A stretch of DNA of 64,000 bases from Halorubrum halophilum. GTDB lineage: Archaea; Halobacteriota; Halobacteria; Halobacteriales; Haloferacaceae. The translations under genes were made by a program, and so were the position numbers. The notes beneath the pieces were generated by a model, which was not told the DNA's origin, ran no database searches, and saw nothing but the letters and a program-made list of their open reading frames with translations. Shown one piece after another: positions 1,894-10,654 of this stretch (positions are counted from its first letter, which is position 1; every line of letters starts with the position of its first letter). Where the stretch lies: contig NZ_BBJP01000059.1 in assembly GCF_000739595.1 (NCBI RefSeq), forward strand, positions 1 through 64,000, given 5' to 3'.

Positions 1894-2367
1894 ATGGCCG
1901 ACGAAGCGATCGACGACGTGGACAGGGCGATCCTGTACGCGTTACAGGAGGACGCTCGAAACACCTCGTCCGGGGACATCGCGGAGCGAACCGGCACGTC
2001 GGACAGCACCGTCCGCAAGCGCATCCAGCGCCTCGAGTCCGACGGGATCATCAAGGGGTACAGCGCCGAAGTCGATTACCAGCAGTCGGGGTACCCCCTC
2101 CGAATGTTACTCTACTGCACCGCCTCGATACCTGAACGCGGCGAGTTGCTCCCGGAGATCCTCGAGATCGACGGCGTCATCTCGGTCCAAGAGCTGGTCA
2201 CCGGCGAACAGAATCTCCTCGTGACGGTGGTCGGCGAGTCGGACAACGACATCACGCCCGTCGCACAGGAGCTCCTCGACATGGGGCTCACCGTCGCCGA
2301 CGAGGTCCTCGTCCGGAGCCACGAGACGACGCCGTTCGGCGAGTTCGACGCCGAGACCGACTCGTAG
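1894..2367 (+). CDS. Lrp/AsnC-family transcriptional regulator
   Basis: A 157-residue protein with the classic two-part Lrp layout. An N-terminal winged helix-turn-helix (IDDVDRAILYALQEDARNTS, then IAERTGTSDSTVRKRIQRLESDGIIKGY, residues about 5-52) is followed by a C-terminal RAM/AsnC ligand-binding domain (about 65-145). It is transcribed in the same direction as, and 208 bp upstream of, the dabB-dabA pair, so it may control bicarbonate uptake; that link is contextual only. The start at 1894 is the first Met before the HTH. The upstream stretch has TATA-like ATAAAG about 27 nt away. The ligand is not predictable from sequence. Confidence 0.9.
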   Translation: MADEAIDDVDRAILYALQEDARNTSSGDIAERTGTSDSTVRKRIQRLESDGIIKGYSAEVDYQQSGYPLRMLLYCTASIPERGELLPEILEIDGVISVQELVTGEQNLLVTVVGESDNDITPVAQELLDMGLTVADEVLVRSHETTPFGEFDAETDS

Positions 2368-2431
2368 GCGACTCCTTCGACGCCGATCGACGTTTCTCGT
2401 CCGCCGATCGCCACCACCGACAGCTAATTAT

Positions 2432-2486
2432 AATGTTCTTTAACGACATTCTTACGAACGATTTGTGAAGACAAGTAGATTTAATA
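2432..2486 (+). promoter_or_regulatory. Probable promoter/operator region of dabB-dabA
   Basis: This AT-rich island stands out from the GC-rich background. It holds an inverted repeat AATGT (2432-2436) / ACATT (2446-2450) and a TATA-like TTTAATA (2480-2486). Initiation about 25 nt downstream would leave a 5' leader of roughly 65 nt before the ATG at 2575, unlike most genes here, which look leaderless. Binding by the adjacent Lrp protein is a guess. Confidence 0.45.
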
Positions 2487-2574
2487 GGCAATCTGTTCAC
2501 TGAAGCGATAGAGACGACCGGTATCGGTTCGCCGACTCGCGTCGGCCGCCGAGAGCGGTCGAACGGACTGAACG

Positions 2575-4068
2575 ATGGCAGGACGCACCTCGAAACCGAC
2601 GGTCGGAGCGCTCCCGGACACGGCGGCGGAGTCGTCGCTCGTGCCCGTCGCACTCACGTGGCTCGCGTGGTCGCTGTTCGCCGCGAGCGTCGTGGCGCTC
2701 TTCGCCCGACTCCGATTCGGTTTCGCCCCGGAGATCACCGGTCTGGTCGCCGTCGACGGACTGACCGTCCTGCTGTGGGTGGTCGTCGCCTTCTTCGGCG
2801 GCATCGTCCACAGCTACTCGCGCCGCTACATGGCGGGAAGCGCCCACGAGACGAAATTTTTCCTCGCCGTGTTCGGCTTCGTGACAGTCGTGATGACCCT
2901 CGTCGCGGCCGACCACCTCGCCCTGTTCGGGCTCCTGTGGCTGGCGATGGGGCTCGTGATGGCGGAGCTAATCGGCGTCGTCGACGGGTGGGAGCAGGCG
3001 CGGGCGGCCGCGTCGGTCGCCCGGCGCTACTTCCTCGCGAGCAGCGCGCTCCTCGGCGTCGCGCTGGCGGCGCTCTGGCGGGCGACCGGCGCGACGACGG
3101 TCTCCGGTATCGCCGCGAACGCCGACGCCCTCGGGGGTCCCGCGTGGCTCGTCGCCGCCGTCGCGCTCGTGCTCGCGGCGATGATCCAGTCCGCGCTCGT
3201 CCCGTTCCACGGCTGGCTGCTCTCCTCGATGACCGCTCCCACCCCGGCGTCGGCGCTGATGCACGCTGGGTTCGTCAACGCGGGCGGCGTCCTCCTGCTC
3301 CGCTTCGCGCCCGTCGTCACCGTCGACGGCGGCCTCATGCTCGCGATCGTCGCGGTCGGCGCGACCAGCGCGCTGCTCGGGAAGCTTCTCAAGGCCACTC
3401 GCCCGGACGTGAAGAGCAAGCTGGCTTGCTCGACGGTGGGACAGATGGGATTCATGATCATGCAGGCCGGGCTCGGCTTCTTCGGAGCCGCGATCACACA
3501 CCTGGTTCTGCACGGGTTCTACAAGGCCTACCACTTCCTCGGCGCGGGCGGGGAGGTCGAACGGAAGAGCCCGGGGAAGGCGACGAGCCACGCGACGGGC
3601 GTCGTCGACGTCGCCGTGACGCTGGCGACCGGACTGGCGGGCGGCGCGACCTTCGTCCTGCTGACGGGGAAGGGAGCGAGCGCCGACACCGGGCTCCTGC
3701 TCGCCCTGTTCGTGACGTTCACCACCCTTCACGCGGCGCGCGGCGCGGTCCGGAACGCGTCGCTTCCGGCGTCGATTCGTTACGGCGCGGTTCCCCTCGT
3801 GTTCCTTCCGGCCATCGCCCTGTACGCGCTCGTCTACAGGGGGATATCGGCCCTTCTGACCGAGGTTCCGGCCGTCACGGCGCCGACCGAGCTGAGCGCG
3901 CTCCACGTCCTCGTGGCCGCCGCCTTCCTCGCGACGTACGTCGCGATAGACACGGGAGTCCACGAGCGCAGCCGGCGGCTCTACGTCGCGCTCCTGAACG
4001 CGGGACAGCCGTCACCCGACACCCTGCTGACGAACGCGGAGGAGTACGATGACGGAGGAGTCCAATGA
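2575..4068 (+). CDS. dabB: DabB: NuoL-like membrane subunit of an inorganic-carbon transporter
   Basis: A 497-residue polytopic membrane protein of the proton-conducting NuoL/MrpA family. Family hallmarks are visible: VPFHGWLLSSMTAPTPASALMHAGF near residues 210-235, the KSKLACSTVGQMGFM block near 280-295, and LHGFYKAYHFLGAG near 310-325. It overlaps the DUF2309 gene by ATGA, with GGAGGAG directly before that start, so the two are translationally coupled. Outside complex I, a NuoL-like protein paired with DUF2309 defines DAB systems. In these, cation flux through DabB is thought to drive one-way CO2 hydration/bicarbonate accumulation by DabA. No other complex I genes are nearby, which argues against a respiratory role. 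Confidence 0.88.
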   Translation: MAGRTSKPTVGALPDTAAESSLVPVALTWLAWSLFAASVVALFARLRFGFAPEITGLVAVDGLTVLLWVVVAFFGGIVHSYSRRYMAGSAHETKFFLAVFGFVTVVMTLVAADHLALFGLLWLAMGLVMAELIGVVDGWEQARAAASVARRYFLASSALLGVALAALWRATGATTVSGIAANADALGGPAWLVAAVALVLAAMIQSALVPFHGWLLSSMTAPTPASALMHAGFVNAGGVLLLRFAPVVTVDGGLMLAIVAVGATSALLGKLLKATRPDVKSKLACSTVGQMGFMIMQAGLGFFGAAITHLVLHGFYKAYHFLGAGGEVERKSPGKATSHATGVVDVAVTLATGLAGGATFVLLTGKGASADTGLLLALFVTFTTLHAARGAVRNASLPASIRYGAVPLVFLPAIALYALVYRGISALLTEVPAVTAPTELSALHVLVAAAFLATYVAIDTGVHERSRRLYVALLNAGQPSPDTLLTNAEEYDDGGVQ

Positions 4069-6542
4069 GCTCGAAATCCACCACCGAAGACGCGACCATC
4101 GAAGAGAGCATCGACAGCGCGGCGAAGACGGTCGGCTCGGTCTGGCCGATCCACTCGTTCGTGACCGCCAACCCCCTCTCGGGGTTCGAGGACGTGCCGT
4201 TCGGCGAGGCGGTGACGCAGGCGGCCGACCTGCTGGGCGGCCGCGGCTACCCGACCCGCGAGACGTTCCGCGCGGCGCTCGACGACGGCCGGATCGATCG
4301 CGAGACGCTCGACTCGGAACTCGCCGACCGCGGCTACGAGGCCGATCCGGAGACGCTTCTCGACCGCCTGCACACCGATACCGAGTCGGAGGAGCGGGAT
4401 GACGGGGGCGACACCGACGCCGAACGAGTCGATCACGTGCTGACGAAGTGGCTGTCGGCCTTCCTCGACGAGGGCCACGCCAAGTGGTCGATGCCGAACC
4501 GCGACGAGGGGTTCTACGCCGCCTTCCGCGGGGTGGCCGCATACGACGGCGAGGTCCCCGACGGGGTCGCCAAGTCGCTTCCCGAAACCGCGACCGAGGC
4601 CATCGAGGCCGCCGTGGAGCCGTATCCGGAGAGTCAGTGGGTGCCCGTCTTCGAGGAGCAGTTGGCCGCGCTTCCGGGGTGGACCGGCCTCATCAAACAG
4701 CGCGCCGACGACGAGGGACCGTGGCAGTCGGCCCACCCGATCACGCTGGCGGAGTACCTCGCGGTCCGCCTCGCGCTCTGCGACGGGTTCGGCGTCGAGA
4801 TCGAGCCGTCGATCGGCCCGGGTACCGCCGATATCGACCCGGCCGACGAGATCGCCGAAGCGTTCCTGAGCGCGTGGGAGGCGAGCTACCGGTCCGCGGT
4901 CGTCGACCGCGTCGCCGCCGAGAGCCGGTCGCTGGCCGATGAGCGGTCCTCGGCCGAGGGCGGATCGTCGGACCGCCCCGACGCGCAGCTGGTCTTCTGT
5001 ATCGACACCCGCTCCGAGGTGATCCGTCGTCACATCGAGGCCACCGGCGACTACGACACCCACGGCTACGCCGGCTTCTTCGGGATCCCGATGGAGTACC
5101 GCGGGTACGACGCGGAGGCTCCGGTCGACGCCTGTCCGCCAATCGTCGACGCGCAGCACCGCGTCAGCGAGGTCCCGACTGACGGGGAGACGCGGGAACG
5201 TCACGACCGGTGGTCGGGCGTCCGCGAGGCCGCGGGCGAGGTCGTCAAGACGCTGAAGACGAACCCGGCGAGCGCCTTCGGCTTCGTCGAGAACGCCGGG
5301 AGCGGCTACGGGCTGGCGCTCGCCGCGCGCACGCTGGTTCCCGGCCGCGTTCGCGACCTGCTGGGCGTCGCCGACGACGCGGTGCCCGACGAGCGCGAGT
5401 TCTGTGACCAGATCGTCGGGCACCAGCACACCCACGCCGACGGGCTGCCGGTGGGGATGACCCGCGAGGAGCAGGTCGAGTACGCCGCGACCGCCTTCGA
5501 GCTGATGGGGTGGACGGAGTTCGCTCGCCTCGTCGTCTTCACCGGCCACGCCAGCGAGACCGCGAACAACCCCTACGACTCTAGCCTCGACTGCGGCGCG
5601 TGCGCCGGCAGCCCCGGAGGGCCGAACGCCCGCGTCCTGGCCGAGATCTGCGCCGACCCCGACGTGCGGGCGGCGCTGCGCGACCGCGGCTTCGAGATCC
5701 CCGAGGACACCGTCTTCCTCGCCGGCGAGCACAACACGACGACCGACGAGATCGAGATCTACGGGGACGCCCCCGAGAGCCACGCGGACGACCTCGAACG
5801 GCTGCGCGCCGACCTCGTCACCGCCCGCGAGAACGCGACCGCCGAGCGCGTCGAGTCGATGGGCGGCGACCCGTCGGGGAGCGTCGAGGACGCCGAGCGC
5901 CGCGCGTCCGACTGGGCCGAGACGCGCCCCGAGTGGGGGCTGGCCGGAAACGCCGGCTTCGTCGTCGGCCCCCGCGAACTGACGAGCGACCTCGACCTCG
6001 ACAGCCGCGCGTTCCTCCACTCGTACGACTGGTCGACCGACCCCGACGGCGACGCGCTCGAAGCGATCCTCGCGGGACCGATGGTCGTCACCCAGTGGAT
6101 CAACGCCCAGTACTACTTCTCGACCGTCGACAACGCGGTCTACGGCAGCGGGTCGAAGGTGACCCAGAACCCCGTCGGCAACGTCGGCGTCTACCAGGGC
6201 AACGGCGGCGACCTGATGACCGGACTCCCGCTCCAGTCGCTGATGGCCGATGCCGACGAGCCGTACCACCAGCCGCTCCGCCTCTCGACGGTGGTCCACG
6301 CGCCGGTCGAGCGCGTCACCGACGCCTTGGCCGACCACGAGGAGGTCACCCGGCTGCTGGACAACGACTGGCTCTCGCTGACGGTCGTCGACCCGACGCA
6401 GGACCACCGCGCGTTCGAGTACGAGCGCGACATGGAGTGGCGGCCGCTCTCCGAGTCGACGGCGACCGAGCCGTCCGCAACCGAGCCGGAGGCGCCGACC
6501 GCTCCCGAGCGCGAGCCCGCACCCGCGGCCGCTGACGACTGA
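4065..6542 (+). CDS. dabA: DabA: DUF2309 zinc-dependent carbonic-anhydrase-like subunit of the DAB inorganic-carbon pump
   Basis: An 825-residue protein with the beta-carbonic-anhydrase-like zinc site of DabA. FCIDTRSEVIRRHIE supplies Cys312 and Asp314. FTGHASETANNPYDSSLDCGACAGSPGGPNAR supplies His495 and Cys510, with the same 15-residue H-to-C spacing as characterised DabA proteins. QHTHADGLPVGMTREEQ (about 454-470) is also typical. No membrane span is obvious, so it should sit on the inner face attached to DabB. The start at 4065 overlaps the dabB stop by 4 nt. An Ala/Pro/Glu-rich tail ends the protein. The host shows no autotrophy genes in this window, so the imported bicarbonate probably feeds anaplerotic or biosynthetic carboxylases. 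Confidence 0.92.
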   Translation: MSSKSTTEDATIEESIDSAAKTVGSVWPIHSFVTANPLSGFEDVPFGEAVTQAADLLGGRGYPTRETFRAALDDGRIDRETLDSELADRGYEADPETLLDRLHTDTESEERDDGGDTDAERVDHVLTKWLSAFLDEGHAKWSMPNRDEGFYAAFRGVAAYDGEVPDGVAKSLPETATEAIEAAVEPYPESQWVPVFEEQLAALPGWTGLIKQRADDEGPWQSAHPITLAEYLAVRLALCDGFGVEIEPSIGPGTADIDPADEIAEAFLSAWEASYRSAVVDRVAAESRSLADERSSAEGGSSDRPDAQLVFCIDTRSEVIRRHIEATGDYDTHGYAGFFGIPMEYRGYDAEAPVDACPPIVDAQHRVSEVPTDGETRERHDRWSGVREAAGEVVKTLKTNPASAFGFVENAGSGYGLALAARTLVPGRVRDLLGVADDAVPDEREFCDQIVGHQHTHADGLPVGMTREEQVEYAATAFELMGWTEFARLVVFTGHASETANNPYDSSLDCGACAGSPGGPNARVLAEICADPDVRAALRDRGFEIPEDTVFLAGEHNTTTDEIEIYGDAPESHADDLERLRADLVTARENATAERVESMGGDPSGSVEDAERRASDWAETRPEWGLAGNAGFVVGPRELTSDLDLDSRAFLHSYDWSTDPDGDALEAILAGPMVVTQWINAQYYFSTVDNAVYGSGSKVTQNPVGNVGVYQGNGGDLMTGLPLQSLMADADEPYHQPLRLSTVVHAPVERVTDALADHEEVTRLLDNDWLSLTVVDPTQDHRAFEYERDMEWRPLSESTATEPSATEPEAPTAPEREPAPAAADD

Positions 6543-6628: not shown

Positions 6629-6683
6629 TTATACCGATGTACATACTTGTACATCACAACGCGAAACACTACATCGGTGTACA
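6629..6683 (+). promoter_or_regulatory. trp operon promoter with three TGTACA boxes
   Basis: TGTACA occurs at 6638-6643, 6648-6653 and 6678-6683. The first two form a perfect 8-bp inverted repeat, GATGTACA-TACT-TGTACATC (6636-6655). The third lies inside the palindrome GTGTACAC (6677-6684), directly before the ATG at 6686. Offsets of 10 and 30 bp place all three on about the same helix face. A TATA-like TTATAC at 6629-6634 would start transcription near 6658, so boxes 1 and 2 cover the initiation region. The TRP box of the Methanothermobacter repressor TrpY has the same TGTACA core, as I recall it. Repression by tryptophan is inferred. Confidence 0.65.
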
Positions 6684-6685
6684 CA

Positions 6686-7741
6686 ATGAATATCAACGAC
6701 ACGGTCGAGCGCGTGACGGACGGGGCGGACCTGACGGTCGACGAGGCGCGCGAGGCCGCGCGGCTCGTCTTCGAGGAGGCGACCGAGGCGCAGATCGGCG
6801 CGCTGCTCGCCGCGCTCCGCGCGAAGGGGGAGACGGAGGCGGAGATCGCGGGGTTCGCGCAGGGGATGCGCGACGCCGCCCGGACGATCGAGCCCGACCG
6901 CCAGCCCCTCGTCGACACCTGCGGGACCGGCGGCGACGACTACGACACGATCAACGTCTCGACGACGGCCGCGATCGTCGCGGCGGGCGCGGGCGTGCCG
7001 ATCGCCAAGCACGGCAACTACTCGGTGTCCTCCTCCTCCGGGAGCGCCGACGTGCTGGAGGTCGCGGGCGCCGACGTGGAGGCCGAGCCGCCGGCGGTCG
7101 AGGCGGCGATCGAACGGGACGGGATCGGGTTCATGCTCGCGCCTGTCTTCCACCCGGCGATGAAGGCCGTCATCGGCCCGCGCAAAGAGCTCGGGATGCG
7201 GACGATCTTCAACGTGCTCGGCCCGCTCACCAACCCCGCCGGCGCCGACGCGCAGGTGCTCGGCGTGTACGACCCGGAGCTGGTCCCCCTCATCGCGCGG
7301 TCGCTCGCGCACATGCCCGTCGAGCACGCCCTCGTGGTCCACGGCGCGGGGATGGACGAGATCGGGATCCACGAGGAAACGGTCGCCGCCGAGGTCGACG
7401 GCGACGAGGTGCGGGAGTTCACGATCGCGCCCGAGGACCTGGGCCTCGACCGCGCCCCGATCGAAGCCGTCGCGGGCGGGACGCCCGAGGAGAACGCGGC
7501 CGACCTGCGGGGGATCGTCGACGGCTCCGTGACGGGCCCCAAACGCGACCTGATCCTGGCGAACGCGGGCGCCGCGATCTACGTCGCCGGCGAGGCCGAC
7601 ACGCTCGCGGCGGGCGTCGAGCGCGCGGCCGAGGCGATCGACTCCGGCGCGGCCGCGGCGAAGTTCGCGGCGCTGTGCGGGGACGGCGAAACGGTCGAGG
7701 GAGACGTGGAGACGACCGCCGCCCCGGAGGACGACGACTGA
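6686..7741 (+). CDS. trpD: Anthranilate phosphoribosyltransferase
   Basis: Second step of tryptophan synthesis: joins anthranilate and PRPP to give phosphoribosyl-anthranilate. The 351-residue protein carries the PRPP-binding DTCGTGGDDYDTINVST (about residues 76-92) and the KHGNYSVSSSSGSADVLE loop (about 107-124), both diagnostic of TrpD. The ATG at 6686 is chosen over the upstream in-frame ATG at 6599 because the family begins here and the promoter elements lie in between. Its stop overlaps the trpF start (TGATG), beginning a four-gene overlapping operon. The acidic C-terminal tail is typical of haloarchaea. Confidence 0.96.
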   Translation: MNINDTVERVTDGADLTVDEAREAARLVFEEATEAQIGALLAALRAKGETEAEIAGFAQGMRDAARTIEPDRQPLVDTCGTGGDDYDTINVSTTAAIVAAGAGVPIAKHGNYSVSSSSGSADVLEVAGADVEAEPPAVEAAIERDGIGFMLAPVFHPAMKAVIGPRKELGMRTIFNVLGPLTNPAGADAQVLGVYDPELVPLIARSLAHMPVEHALVVHGAGMDEIGIHEETVAAEVDGDEVREFTIAPEDLGLDRAPIEAVAGGTPEENAADLRGIVDGSVTGPKRDLILANAGAAIYVAGEADTLAAGVERAAEAIDSGAAAAKFAALCGDGETVEGDVETTAAPEDDD

Positions 7742-8385
7742 TGGCCCGGGTGAAGATCTGCGGGCTGACCCGGGGCGCCGACCTCCGGGCCGCGGTCGAC
7801 GCTGGTGCCGACGCGGTGGGCGTCATCTCCGAGGTCCCGGTCGACTCCCCCCGCGAGGTCGACCCGGCGACGGCGGCGGAGCTGTTCGCGGACGTGCCGC
7901 CGTTCGTCACCGCGACGCTCGTCACCATGCCCGACTCCGCCGAGCGCGCGGTCGAGCTCCTGCGGACGGTCACCCCGGACGCCGTCCAGCTCCACGGCGA
8001 GTGGACCCCCGACGAGATCCGGTACATCCGCGCGGAGACGGAGCGGAAGGTCCTGCTCGCGGTCGACGCCGACGACCCGGCGCGTGCCGAGGAGTTCGAT
8101 CGGGTCGCCGACGCGCTCGTGATCGACTCGACCGACGACTCCGGCGCCGGCGGCACCGGCGAGACTCACGACTGGGAGCGGGCCGGCGACCTCGCCGACC
8201 GACTCACCTCGCCGGTGGTTCTCGCCGGCGGCCTCACGGCCGACAACGTCGACGAGGCGGTCCGGGCCGCCGACCCCTTCGCGGTCGACGTGGCCTCCGG
8301 CGTCGAACTCACCGACGGACGCAAGGACCACAACGCGGTGGCCCGCTTCGTGGCGAACGCGGGCCGGGAGATGGAGCTCGCATGA
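7741..8385 (+). CDS. trpF: Phosphoribosylanthranilate isomerase
   Basis: Third step of tryptophan synthesis: Amadori rearrangement of phosphoribosyl-anthranilate to CdRP. The 214-residue beta/alpha-barrel starts VKICGLTR, with the catalytic Cys in the first strand. It has VQLHGEWTPDEIRYIR in the middle, a strand with the second catalytic Asp (ALVIDSTDD), and phosphate-binding VVLAGGLTADNVDEAV and FAVDVASGVE loops near the end. The start shares one base with the trpD stop, and its own stop overlaps the trpE start by ATGA. Confidence 0.95.
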   Translation: MARVKICGLTRGADLRAAVDAGADAVGVISEVPVDSPREVDPATAAELFADVPPFVTATLVTMPDSAERAVELLRTVTPDAVQLHGEWTPDEIRYIRAETERKVLLAVDADDPARAEEFDRVADALVIDSTDDSGAGGTGETHDWERAGDLADRLTSPVVLAGGLTADNVDEAVRAADPFAVDVASGVELTDGRKDHNAVARFVANAGREMELA

Positions 8386-10058
8386 CCGATCCGGAAACCT
8401 CGCTCGACCGCTCGAAGGCCGAGTTCGTCGACCTCGCGGCCGACGCCGAGAAGCCGGTCGTGGTCCGCGCGTCCGCGTCGCTCGACGCCGACGTGACCCC
8501 GCTCGCGGCGTACGCGACGCTGGTCGGCGAGGGGCCGTACGGGTTCCTCTTGGAGTCCGGCGAGAAGGTCGCCTCCAGCGACCCCGACGGCGCGTTCACC
8601 GCCGACGGCGACGCCGACAAACATGCCCGGTACTCGTTCGTCGGCTACGACCCCGAAGCGATCGTCTCGGTCCACCCCGACCGGACCGACGTGACCCGAT
8701 TGGGTCCGGCGGCGGAATTCGTGGGGGAGGGCGCGAGTTCGGAGTCCGATCTGGGACCCGACGCCATCGACCGGATCCGCGCAGCCTTTCCGGACGTGAG
8801 CCTGCGCGGCTTCCCGGACACCGACCGGCAGATACTCTCCGGCGGCTTCGTCGGATTCCTCGCCTACGAGGCGGTTTACGACCTCTGGCTGGAGGAGGTC
8901 GGCGTTGACCGCCCCGAGACCGAGTTCCCCGACGCCGAGTTCGCGTTAACGACCCGCACTGTCGTCTTCGACGACAAGGAGGGGACCGTCGAACTCGTCT
9001 TCACCCCCGTCGTCGGCGTCGACGACGACCCCGCGGCCGTCTACGACGACCTCGTCGCCGAGGCGGAGCGCGTGGGAGAGGAGCTTCGCGAGGCCGCGCC
9101 GTCGGAGCCGGACGGGATCCGCGTGGACGACGAGTCCGCCGACCCCCGCGAGGCGTACGAGGAGGCGGTGCGGACCGCCAAGCAACGCGTCCTCGACGGC
9201 GACATTTATCAGGGCGTGATCTCGCGGAGCCGCGAGCTCCGGGGCGAGGTCGACTCGCTGGGGCTGTACGCGGCGCTGCGCGAGGTGAACCCCTCGCCGT
9301 ACATGTACGTCTTGCGCCACGACGACCGGAGTATCGTCGGCGCGAGCCCGGAGACGCTGGTGTCGGTGCAGGGCGACCGGATCGTCTCGAACCCGATCGC
9401 CGGCACCTGTCCCCGCGGGACGAGCCCGGTCGAGGACCGCCGGCTCGCCGGCGAGATGCTCGCGGACGGGAAGGAGCGCGCCGAGCACACGATGTTAGTC
9501 GACCTCGCGCGCAACGACGTGCGGCGCGTCTCGGAGGCGGGCTCCGTCCGCGTCGAGGAGTTCATGAACGTGCTGAAGTACAGCCACGTCCAGCACATCG
9601 AGTCGACCGTGACGGGGACGCTGGCGGCCGACGCCGACGCCTTCGACGCGACGCGCGCGACGTTCCCTGCCGGCACGCTCACGGGCGCTCCGAAGGTGCG
9701 CGCGATGGAGATCATCGAGGAGTTGGAGACGACCCCGCGGGAGGCGTACGGCGGCGGCGTCGGCTACTACGCGTGGACCGGCGACGCCGACTTCGCCATC
9801 GTGATCCGGACCGCGACGCTCGACGAGTCGCCGCCGGGTGCGAGCGGTCCGGACGAGACCGCGGTCACGGTCCGGGCGGGCGCCGGGCTCGTCGCCGACT
9901 CCGACCCGGCCGCCGAGTACGAGGAGACCGAGCAGAAGATGGACGGCGTGTTGACCGCGATCGATCGGATCCGAGAGGGCGGAGACGCCGGTGAGGACGA
10001 CTTCGTCTCCGACGCCGCGGACGACCCCCTCCCCGCCGGCACGGAGGTCGACGAATGA
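8382..10058 (+). CDS. trpE: Anthranilate synthase component I
   Basis: First step of tryptophan synthesis: converts chorismate to anthranilate using ammonia from TrpG. The 558-residue protein has the N-terminal feedback motif FLLESGEK (about residue 55-62), where tryptophan binds in characterised enzymes, and the C-terminal chorismate-binding domain. That domain shows GDIYQGVISR (about 273), NPIAGTCPRGTSP (about 337), a LVDLARND block (about 371), and FPAGTLTGAPKVRAMEII (about 428). Presence of the LLES element suggests feedback inhibition in addition to transcriptional control. It overlaps trpF and trpG by ATGA at both ends. Confidence 0.96.
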   Translation: MTDPETSLDRSKAEFVDLAADAEKPVVVRASASLDADVTPLAAYATLVGEGPYGFLLESGEKVASSDPDGAFTADGDADKHARYSFVGYDPEAIVSVHPDRTDVTRLGPAAEFVGEGASSESDLGPDAIDRIRAAFPDVSLRGFPDTDRQILSGGFVGFLAYEAVYDLWLEEVGVDRPETEFPDAEFALTTRTVVFDDKEGTVELVFTPVVGVDDDPAAVYDDLVAEAERVGEELREAAPSEPDGIRVDDESADPREAYEEAVRTAKQRVLDGDIYQGVISRSRELRGEVDSLGLYAALREVNPSPYMYVLRHDDRSIVGASPETLVSVQGDRIVSNPIAGTCPRGTSPVEDRRLAGEMLADGKERAEHTMLVDLARNDVRRVSEAGSVRVEEFMNVLKYSHVQHIESTVTGTLAADADAFDATRATFPAGTLTGAPKVRAMEIIEELETTPREAYGGGVGYYAWTGDADFAIVIRTATLDESPPGASGPDETAVTVRAGAGLVADSDPAAEYEETEQKMDGVLTAIDRIREGGDAGEDDFVSDAADDPLPAGTEVDE

Positions 10059-10654
10059 ACGTCGTCGTCGTCGACAACTTCGACTCGTTCACCTACAACC
10101 TCGTCGAGTACGTCTCCGACCAGCCGCTCGATGGAGAAGAGGGGCCGATCGACGTCGAGGTGTTCAAGAACACCGCGTCGCTGGCGGCGATCCGCGACGC
10201 CGACCCGGACGCGATCCTCATCAGCCCCGGCCCCGGCCACCCGAAGAACGAGCGCGACGTGGGCGTGACGATGGACGTGTTGCGCGACCTCTCCCCGGAG
10301 GTCCCGACGCTCGGCGTCTGTCTCGGCCTCGAAGCCGCCGTCTATGAGTACGGGGGCGCGGTCGGCCACGCGCCCGAGCCGATCCACGGCAAGGCGTTCC
10401 CCGTCGACCACGACGGCGAGGGCGTGTTCGCCGGGCTCGATCAGGGGTTCCGCGCCGGCCGCTACCACTCGCTGGCCGCCACCGAGGTCCCCGACGCCTT
10501 CGAGGTGACCGCGACCACGGACCACGAGGGCGAGGAGATCGTGATGGGGATCCGCGGCCGCGAGCACCCGATCGAGGCGGTGCAGTTCCACCCGGAGAGC
10601 GTGTTGACTGCGTCCGGCCACGACCTGATCCGGAACTTCCTCACGTCTGTGTAA
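10055..10654 (+). CDS. trpG: Anthranilate synthase component II (glutamine amidotransferase)
   Basis: Releases ammonia from glutamine for TrpE. This 199-residue class I amidotransferase has NFDSFTYNLVEY at the start, the oxyanion strand LISPGPGHPKN, the nucleophile Cys in LGVCLGLEA (about residue 89) and the His-Glu pair in VQFHPESVLT (about 178-180). The order trpD-F-E-G is complete for steps 1-3. trpC and trpBA are not in this window and must lie elsewhere. It is the last gene of the operon and is followed by tandem repeats and T-rich sequence. Confidence 0.96.
   Translation: MNVVVVDNFDSFTYNLVEYVSDQPLDGEEGPIDVEVFKNTASLAAIRDADPDAILISPGPGHPKNERDVGVTMDVLRDLSPEVPTLGVCLGLEAAVYEYGGAVGHAPEPIHGKAFPVDHDGEGVFAGLDQGFRAGRYHSLAATEVPDAFEVTATTDHEGEEIVMGIRGREHPIEAVQFHPESVLTASGHDLIRNFLTSV

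Follow-up and report, generated by a model that had tools for sequence, protein, structure and literature searches.

The trpDFEG operon of Halorubrum halophilum is preceded by three copies of the hexamer TGTACA, which raises the question of whether these boxes form an operator and, if so, which protein reads it. TGTACA is the TRP-box consensus in M. thermautotrophicus. In that organism TrpY binds TRP boxes and represses trp in the presence of tryptophan (PMC6737238). Only one TrpY protein has been reported with a demonstrated trp operator, and in the same 2019 study a function could not be assigned to the branches containing the haloarchaeal and Archaeoglobus homologues (PMC6737238). A preliminary description of the window, by which we mean the whole 64,000-nucleotide stretch of DNA analysed here, had placed the boxes at 6638, 6648 and 6678, with start-to-start spacings of 10 and 30 bp, and proposed a related or convergent repressor. 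The sequence bears out these positions and spacings (Table 1).

Boxes 1 and 2 lie between a TATA-like element and the predicted transcription start, which we place about 25 bp 3' of the TATA from TATA spacing. Together they make up the inverted repeat GATGTACA-TACT-TGTACATC. It had been called a perfect palindrome, which holds for the perfectly inverted 8-bp arms but not for the 4-bp centre. The trpD start codon follows directly 3' of the box region. On the other side of the promoter, positions 1894-6542 hold an Lrp/AsnC-type regulator gene, then a gene for a proton-antiporter-type membrane protein, then one for DabA (PF10070, 872 bits). The last two products are likely an inorganic carbon uptake pair, encoded directly upstream of the trp operon.

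Table 1. Promoter elements, boxes and genes of the trpDFEG locus; column numbers refer to the alignment of 80 trpD leaders.
Feature	Position	Strand	Basis or remark
TATA-like TTATA	6629-6633	+	Same distance 5' of box 1 in trpD leaders; CTTAAG/CTTATA in relatives; putative promoter function
Inverted repeat GATGTACA-N4-TGTACATC, boxes 1 and 2	6636-6655	+	Sequence
Box 1, slot 0, TGTACA	6638-6643	+	Columns 10-14: T76 G77 T56/A15 A78 C74 of 80
Box 2, slot +10, TGTACA	6648-6653	+	Columns 20-25: T73 G77 T67 A61 C77 A80 of 80
Predicted transcription start, purine about 25 bp after TATA	6656-6658	+	Predicted from TATA spacing
Slot +20, strongly degenerate, AACGCG (relatives AAGACG/AACACG)	6658-6663	+	Column 34 C 80/80, keeps 10-bp register
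Box 3, slot +30, ACTACA here, consensus CGTACA(TYGG)	6668-6673	+	Columns 42-45: T69 A66 C80 A79 of 80
GGTG, Shine-Dalgarno-like, conserved, overlaps slot +40	6676-6679	+	Columns 48-51
Slot +40, TGTACA only in this genome; relatives mostly TGNCCA/TGNNNA	6678-6683	+	Leader alignment
trpD, first gene of the putatively controlled operon	6686-7741	+	TIGR01245, 410.8 bits
trpF	7741-8385	+	214-aa reading frame; assigned from sequence and operon position
trpE	8382-10058	+	TIGR01820, 581.4 bits
trpG	10055-10654	+	NF041322, 353.2 bits

TGTACA occurs 452 times in the 3.68 Mb of this genome, compared with 251 occurrences of the backwards control. At the average rate, which AT-rich promoters would raise, one would expect the whole genome to hold about 0.06 pairs with a spacing of exactly 10 bp and about 0.005 triplets contained in 46 bp; the conservation described below is a stronger argument than these chance figures. 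Besides the pair at trp, the genome holds a single close TGTACA pair. That pair, TGTACACAATTGTCGTGTACA (L002 1501-1521, contig C76), is spaced 15 bp and was set aside as out of phase; it occupies the divergent promoter between genes for an M20-type amidohydrolase and a hydroxyacid dehydrogenase, and is possibly another regulator's site. Searching the genome for GATGTACA-N4-TGTACATC returned four sites with at most three mismatches (none for the reversed control), and the trp site was the sole perfect match. The site with two mismatches, near tRNA-Thr, and the two with three, which fall within a coding frame or at its end, looked like chance.

We compared the trpD leaders of 50 genomes of the same family with 30 from eight other families of Halobacteria. 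One shared element aligned in 77 of the 80 leaders and spanned nine Halobacteria families, with the consensus order CTTAAG, GATGTAC-N4-TTGTACATT, AAGACGAA, a CGTACATTGGTG block and ATG. Under column permutation, the column frequency vectors repeated at lags of 10 (p=0.01), 20 (p=0.0005) and 30 (p=0.0005), and repetition at lags 9, 11, 19, 21, 29 and 31 was at or below expectation; because the leaders come from related genomes and are not independent samples, the p values apply to the consensus and not to separate events. Recognisable boxes occupy slots 0, +10 and +30, while slot +20 keeps the AC register only. The preliminary description had suggested searching haloarchaeal genomes for boxes before trp genes, and had held that a lack of conservation in relatives would refute its idea. 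The shared element answers the search, and boxes 1 and 2 are retained. The box at 6678 is in phase (slot +40), but its TGTACA is not conserved in relatives and is peculiar to the species. It is a degenerate copy, ACTACA(TCGG), at 6668 and 20 bp past box 2, that is conserved as the third box. That these boxes belong to a conserved operator, arrayed in the interval separating the TATA box from the trpD start codon, is near certain.

The same arrangement marks a second haloarchaeal operon. In this genome trpCBA resides on a separate contig from the trpD operon, and the trpC promoter consensus from 31 genomes, GCAAGCCTTATGWACAGATACGTACATTAGTGTACA, places three boxes 10 bp apart shortly 5' of the start codon. 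The trpC leaders repeat at lags of 10 and 20 (p<0.0005). Across 40 Haloferacaceae genomes, the pattern ATGWAC-N6-GTRCAT matched 47 distinct sites, 24 at trpD, 14 at trpC and nine elsewhere, the last mostly inside genes; the reversed pattern gave five matches. With 38 of the 47 sites at trpD or trpC, the strict form of the site is therefore, in these haloarchaea, largely confined to the two trp operons. These results bear on whether the conservation could reflect core promoter and translation signals (TATA/BRE, initiator, Shine-Dalgarno) instead of a repressor site. TTATA and GGTG are indeed conserved, and they correspond to a promoter signal and a Shine-Dalgarno-like one. A Shine-Dalgarno remnant is a possible reading of GGTG, as methanogen trpD leaders carry GGTGAT at the matching position. 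However, the TGTACA core repeats at 10, 20 and 30 bp and is common to trpD, trpC and methanogen trp genes, and the boxes are not general to promoters, as the few pattern sites elsewhere attest. We consider an explanation by core signals scarcely credible.

Elsewhere in the phylum, other families likewise have phased boxes directly 5' of trpD (e.g. TATACACCAATGTACATACATATACA, 18/18), and such boxes precede trpE or trpC where those genes head the operon. Further phased sites were found at trpB, at the TrpB-like trpB2 (NF009057), at the ADH synthase gene aroA' (TIGR01949), at TrpP-like transporters (one passing PF17099, the others judged by sequence resemblance), and at genes for an energy-coupling-factor (ECF) ATPase and PaaK-like ligases. 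By our own reading, about 31 of 49 distinct phased-triplet sites have a link to tryptophan or aromatic compounds; the others are unclassified or chance-like. Single sites carry less weight in AT-rich Methanosarcinaceae-type genomes, where the reversed control was not negligible. The sites predict a methanogen tryptophan regulon comprising trpB2, TrpP-like uptake and aroA'. TrpY of M. thermautotrophicus also controls trpB2, a likeness to the trpB2 target in methanogens of this phylum. Taken together, the conservation, the phasing on one helix face, the trpCBA boxes and the methanogen trpB2, TrpP and aro targets argue for a tryptophan operator, and they lend support to the earlier proposal of a related or convergent repressor at a TGTACA core.

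A candidate for that repressor is present. The genome encodes a 166-aa TrpY-family protein that passes NF053754 (TrpY_fam) with 229.6 bits against a cut-off of 180, and a TrpY-related repressor is favoured over a convergent one because of this gene; a Methanocella homologue scores 215.4 bits against the same cut-off. Pfam returned an ACT match of 31.1 bits and no HTH match in the protein. The N-terminal helix-turn-helix is predicted from the family name and from a model of the Methanocella homologue (pLDDT 86, pTM 0.51), which has helices at 44-51 and 55-67 and a C-terminal beta-alpha-beta ACT region; PDB matches of the model were ACT domains. The preliminary description had recommended looking for such an HTH-ACT protein and had correctly reported the operon to have no trpY-like neighbour; the gene maps to a different contig (C74), next to radA and 5' of it. 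Of 296 genomes from the phylum, 289 have a match to the family, in single copy, a near-universality that would also fit another role. None of the 130 loci examined had trp genes near the TrpY-family gene, and adjacency was dropped as direct support. In haloarchaea the region 5' of the gene showed no phased boxes. In the limited literature searched, we found no study of TrpY in haloarchaea.

Both the location and the promoter of the gene depart from the characterised locus. The M. thermautotrophicus gene is autoregulated through boxes at its own promoter, in a divergent, adjacent trpY-trp layout with shared boxes, whereas the haloarchaeal gene lies away from trp and has no boxes at its own promoter, which counts against TrpY. 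The T. kodakarensis homologue, moreover, does not regulate trp (PMC6737238). A different DNA-binding protein might use the boxes and the unlinked, not box-controlled TrpY-family protein have some other role, as TkTrpY does. We think this rather improbable, given that the combined targets (trp operons, trpB2, a TrpP-like transporter and aroA') fit a tryptophan regulator and that the sole lineage without the TrpY-family gene also lacks the boxes.

In that lineage (family f18) the gene was absent from both genomes sampled, and the trp leaders showed no phased boxes (p ~0.4), whereas 17 of 19 other trp leaders tested gave phased-box p values of at most 0.012; the leaders were mostly those at hand, making this a consistency check and not an unbiased survey. 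Three cases fit less neatly. Most genomes of family f13 have the gene, yet the one trp leader examined (G081) has no boxes; G068 has boxes at 0, 20 and 30, which the strict triplet score missed; and G256 (f28) has boxes but no TrpY-family gene was found in its contaminated and incomplete assembly. Two f18 trp leaders (L371, L372), from genomes without the TrpY-family gene, repeat TATGTCA/TGACA words before trpE, perhaps as a replacement regulator's site. In two f28 trpD leaders (L373, L374) the boxes read TGTATA/TGAACA-N4-TGTTCA with the 10-bp spacing kept, a possible shift of the recognised core.

The main rival accepts a tryptophan or aromatic amino acid operator and assigns it to an Lrp/AsnC-family protein such as LrpA2. 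Such proteins resemble the TrpY family in combining an HTH with an ACT-like (RAM) domain and in an amino acid signal, and Lrp proteins also bind phased sites, at least in some members, which counts in favour of LrpA2. An Lrp/AsnC-type gene also lies 4.3 kb upstream in the window (1894-2367). In H. salinarum, LrpA2 responds to aromatic amino acids, was induced 14.9-fold without them and has been proposed as a regulator (PMC4162585). However, the core is TrpY's, and phased trp boxes extend through a phylum in which the TrpY family is single-copy and near-universal. The Lrp gene in the window falls below every curated Lrp cut-off and adjoins DabA/DabB-type genes, and no Lrp gene was found downstream of any of the four box-pair sites of the genome (at most three mismatches). 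In addition, the TrpY-family model, compared over its full length, matched Lrp proteins poorly in structure (TM ~0.25-0.31, rmsd ~10 A). Overall, we judge an Lrp/AsnC binder unlikely.

A further aromatic regulator, Tar (TK0271) of T. kodakarensis, shares a palindromic site and targets at trp and other aromatic amino acid operons. Its site, however, reads TGGACA-N8-TGTCCA and lies 5' of BRE/TATA, and Tar acts as an activator (PMC6737238); the boxes here are TGTACA-N4-TGTACA, phased at 10 bp and downstream of the TATA.

We therefore return to TrpY. The boxes are probably the operator of a haloarchaeal tryptophan regulon, with a TrpY-family, tryptophan-responsive repressor as the putative binder, and a TrpY-family protein is a likely occupant of the operator. 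As with M. thermautotrophicus TrpY, TGTACA-type boxes overlap the trp promoter and a TrpY-family regulator is encoded; the differences are the two separate operons controlled in haloarchaea and, relative to known systems, a regulator gene that is unlinked and apparently not autoregulated. The haloarchaeal boxes form a strict 10-bp array. By analogy, and from published expression data, we infer that repression would occur with tryptophan: trpCBA and trpD1FE1G1 of H. salinarum are co-induced when aromatic amino acids are lacking (PMC4162585), which is consistent with tryptophan repression. A shared operator offers an explanation for this co-regulation, and a conserved operator with a named candidate gene makes the haloarchaeal TrpY branch testable in Haloferax volcanii.

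In the mechanism we propose, the TrpY-family protein, through its N-terminal helix-turn-helix, would bind TGTACA boxes one helical turn apart, and several subunits would line one DNA face, beginning just 3' of the TATA box and extending over the transcription start. Plentiful tryptophan would bind the C-terminal ACT domain and strengthen or extend the array, which would block RNA polymerase or TBP/TFB at trpDFEG; the matching array would do so at trpCBA. The strict 10-bp register over up to five slots would imply that subunits coat one DNA face cooperatively, side by side, over the start site. Opinion is evenly balanced on the broader proposal that the ancestor of the phylum already had a phased-array TrpY regulon, which has survived in haloarchaea but has shrunk there to two operons and lacks autoregulation, and that cooperative coating takes the place of single-palindrome occupancy.

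Several further loci merit separate mention. Four in methanogens encode TrpP-like small membrane proteins with phased boxes (L249, L267, L270, L284), and in G085 an ECF ATPase gene (L272) is also boxed, which suggests an ECF-type tryptophan uptake system. In Methanocella-type genomes, phased boxes precede a phenylacetate-CoA ligase (PaaK-like) gene (L250, L251), suggesting that aryl-acid salvage there is under tryptophan control. Finally, a phased TGTACA triplet lies 5' of a lactate-permease-family transporter gene in G068 (L271).
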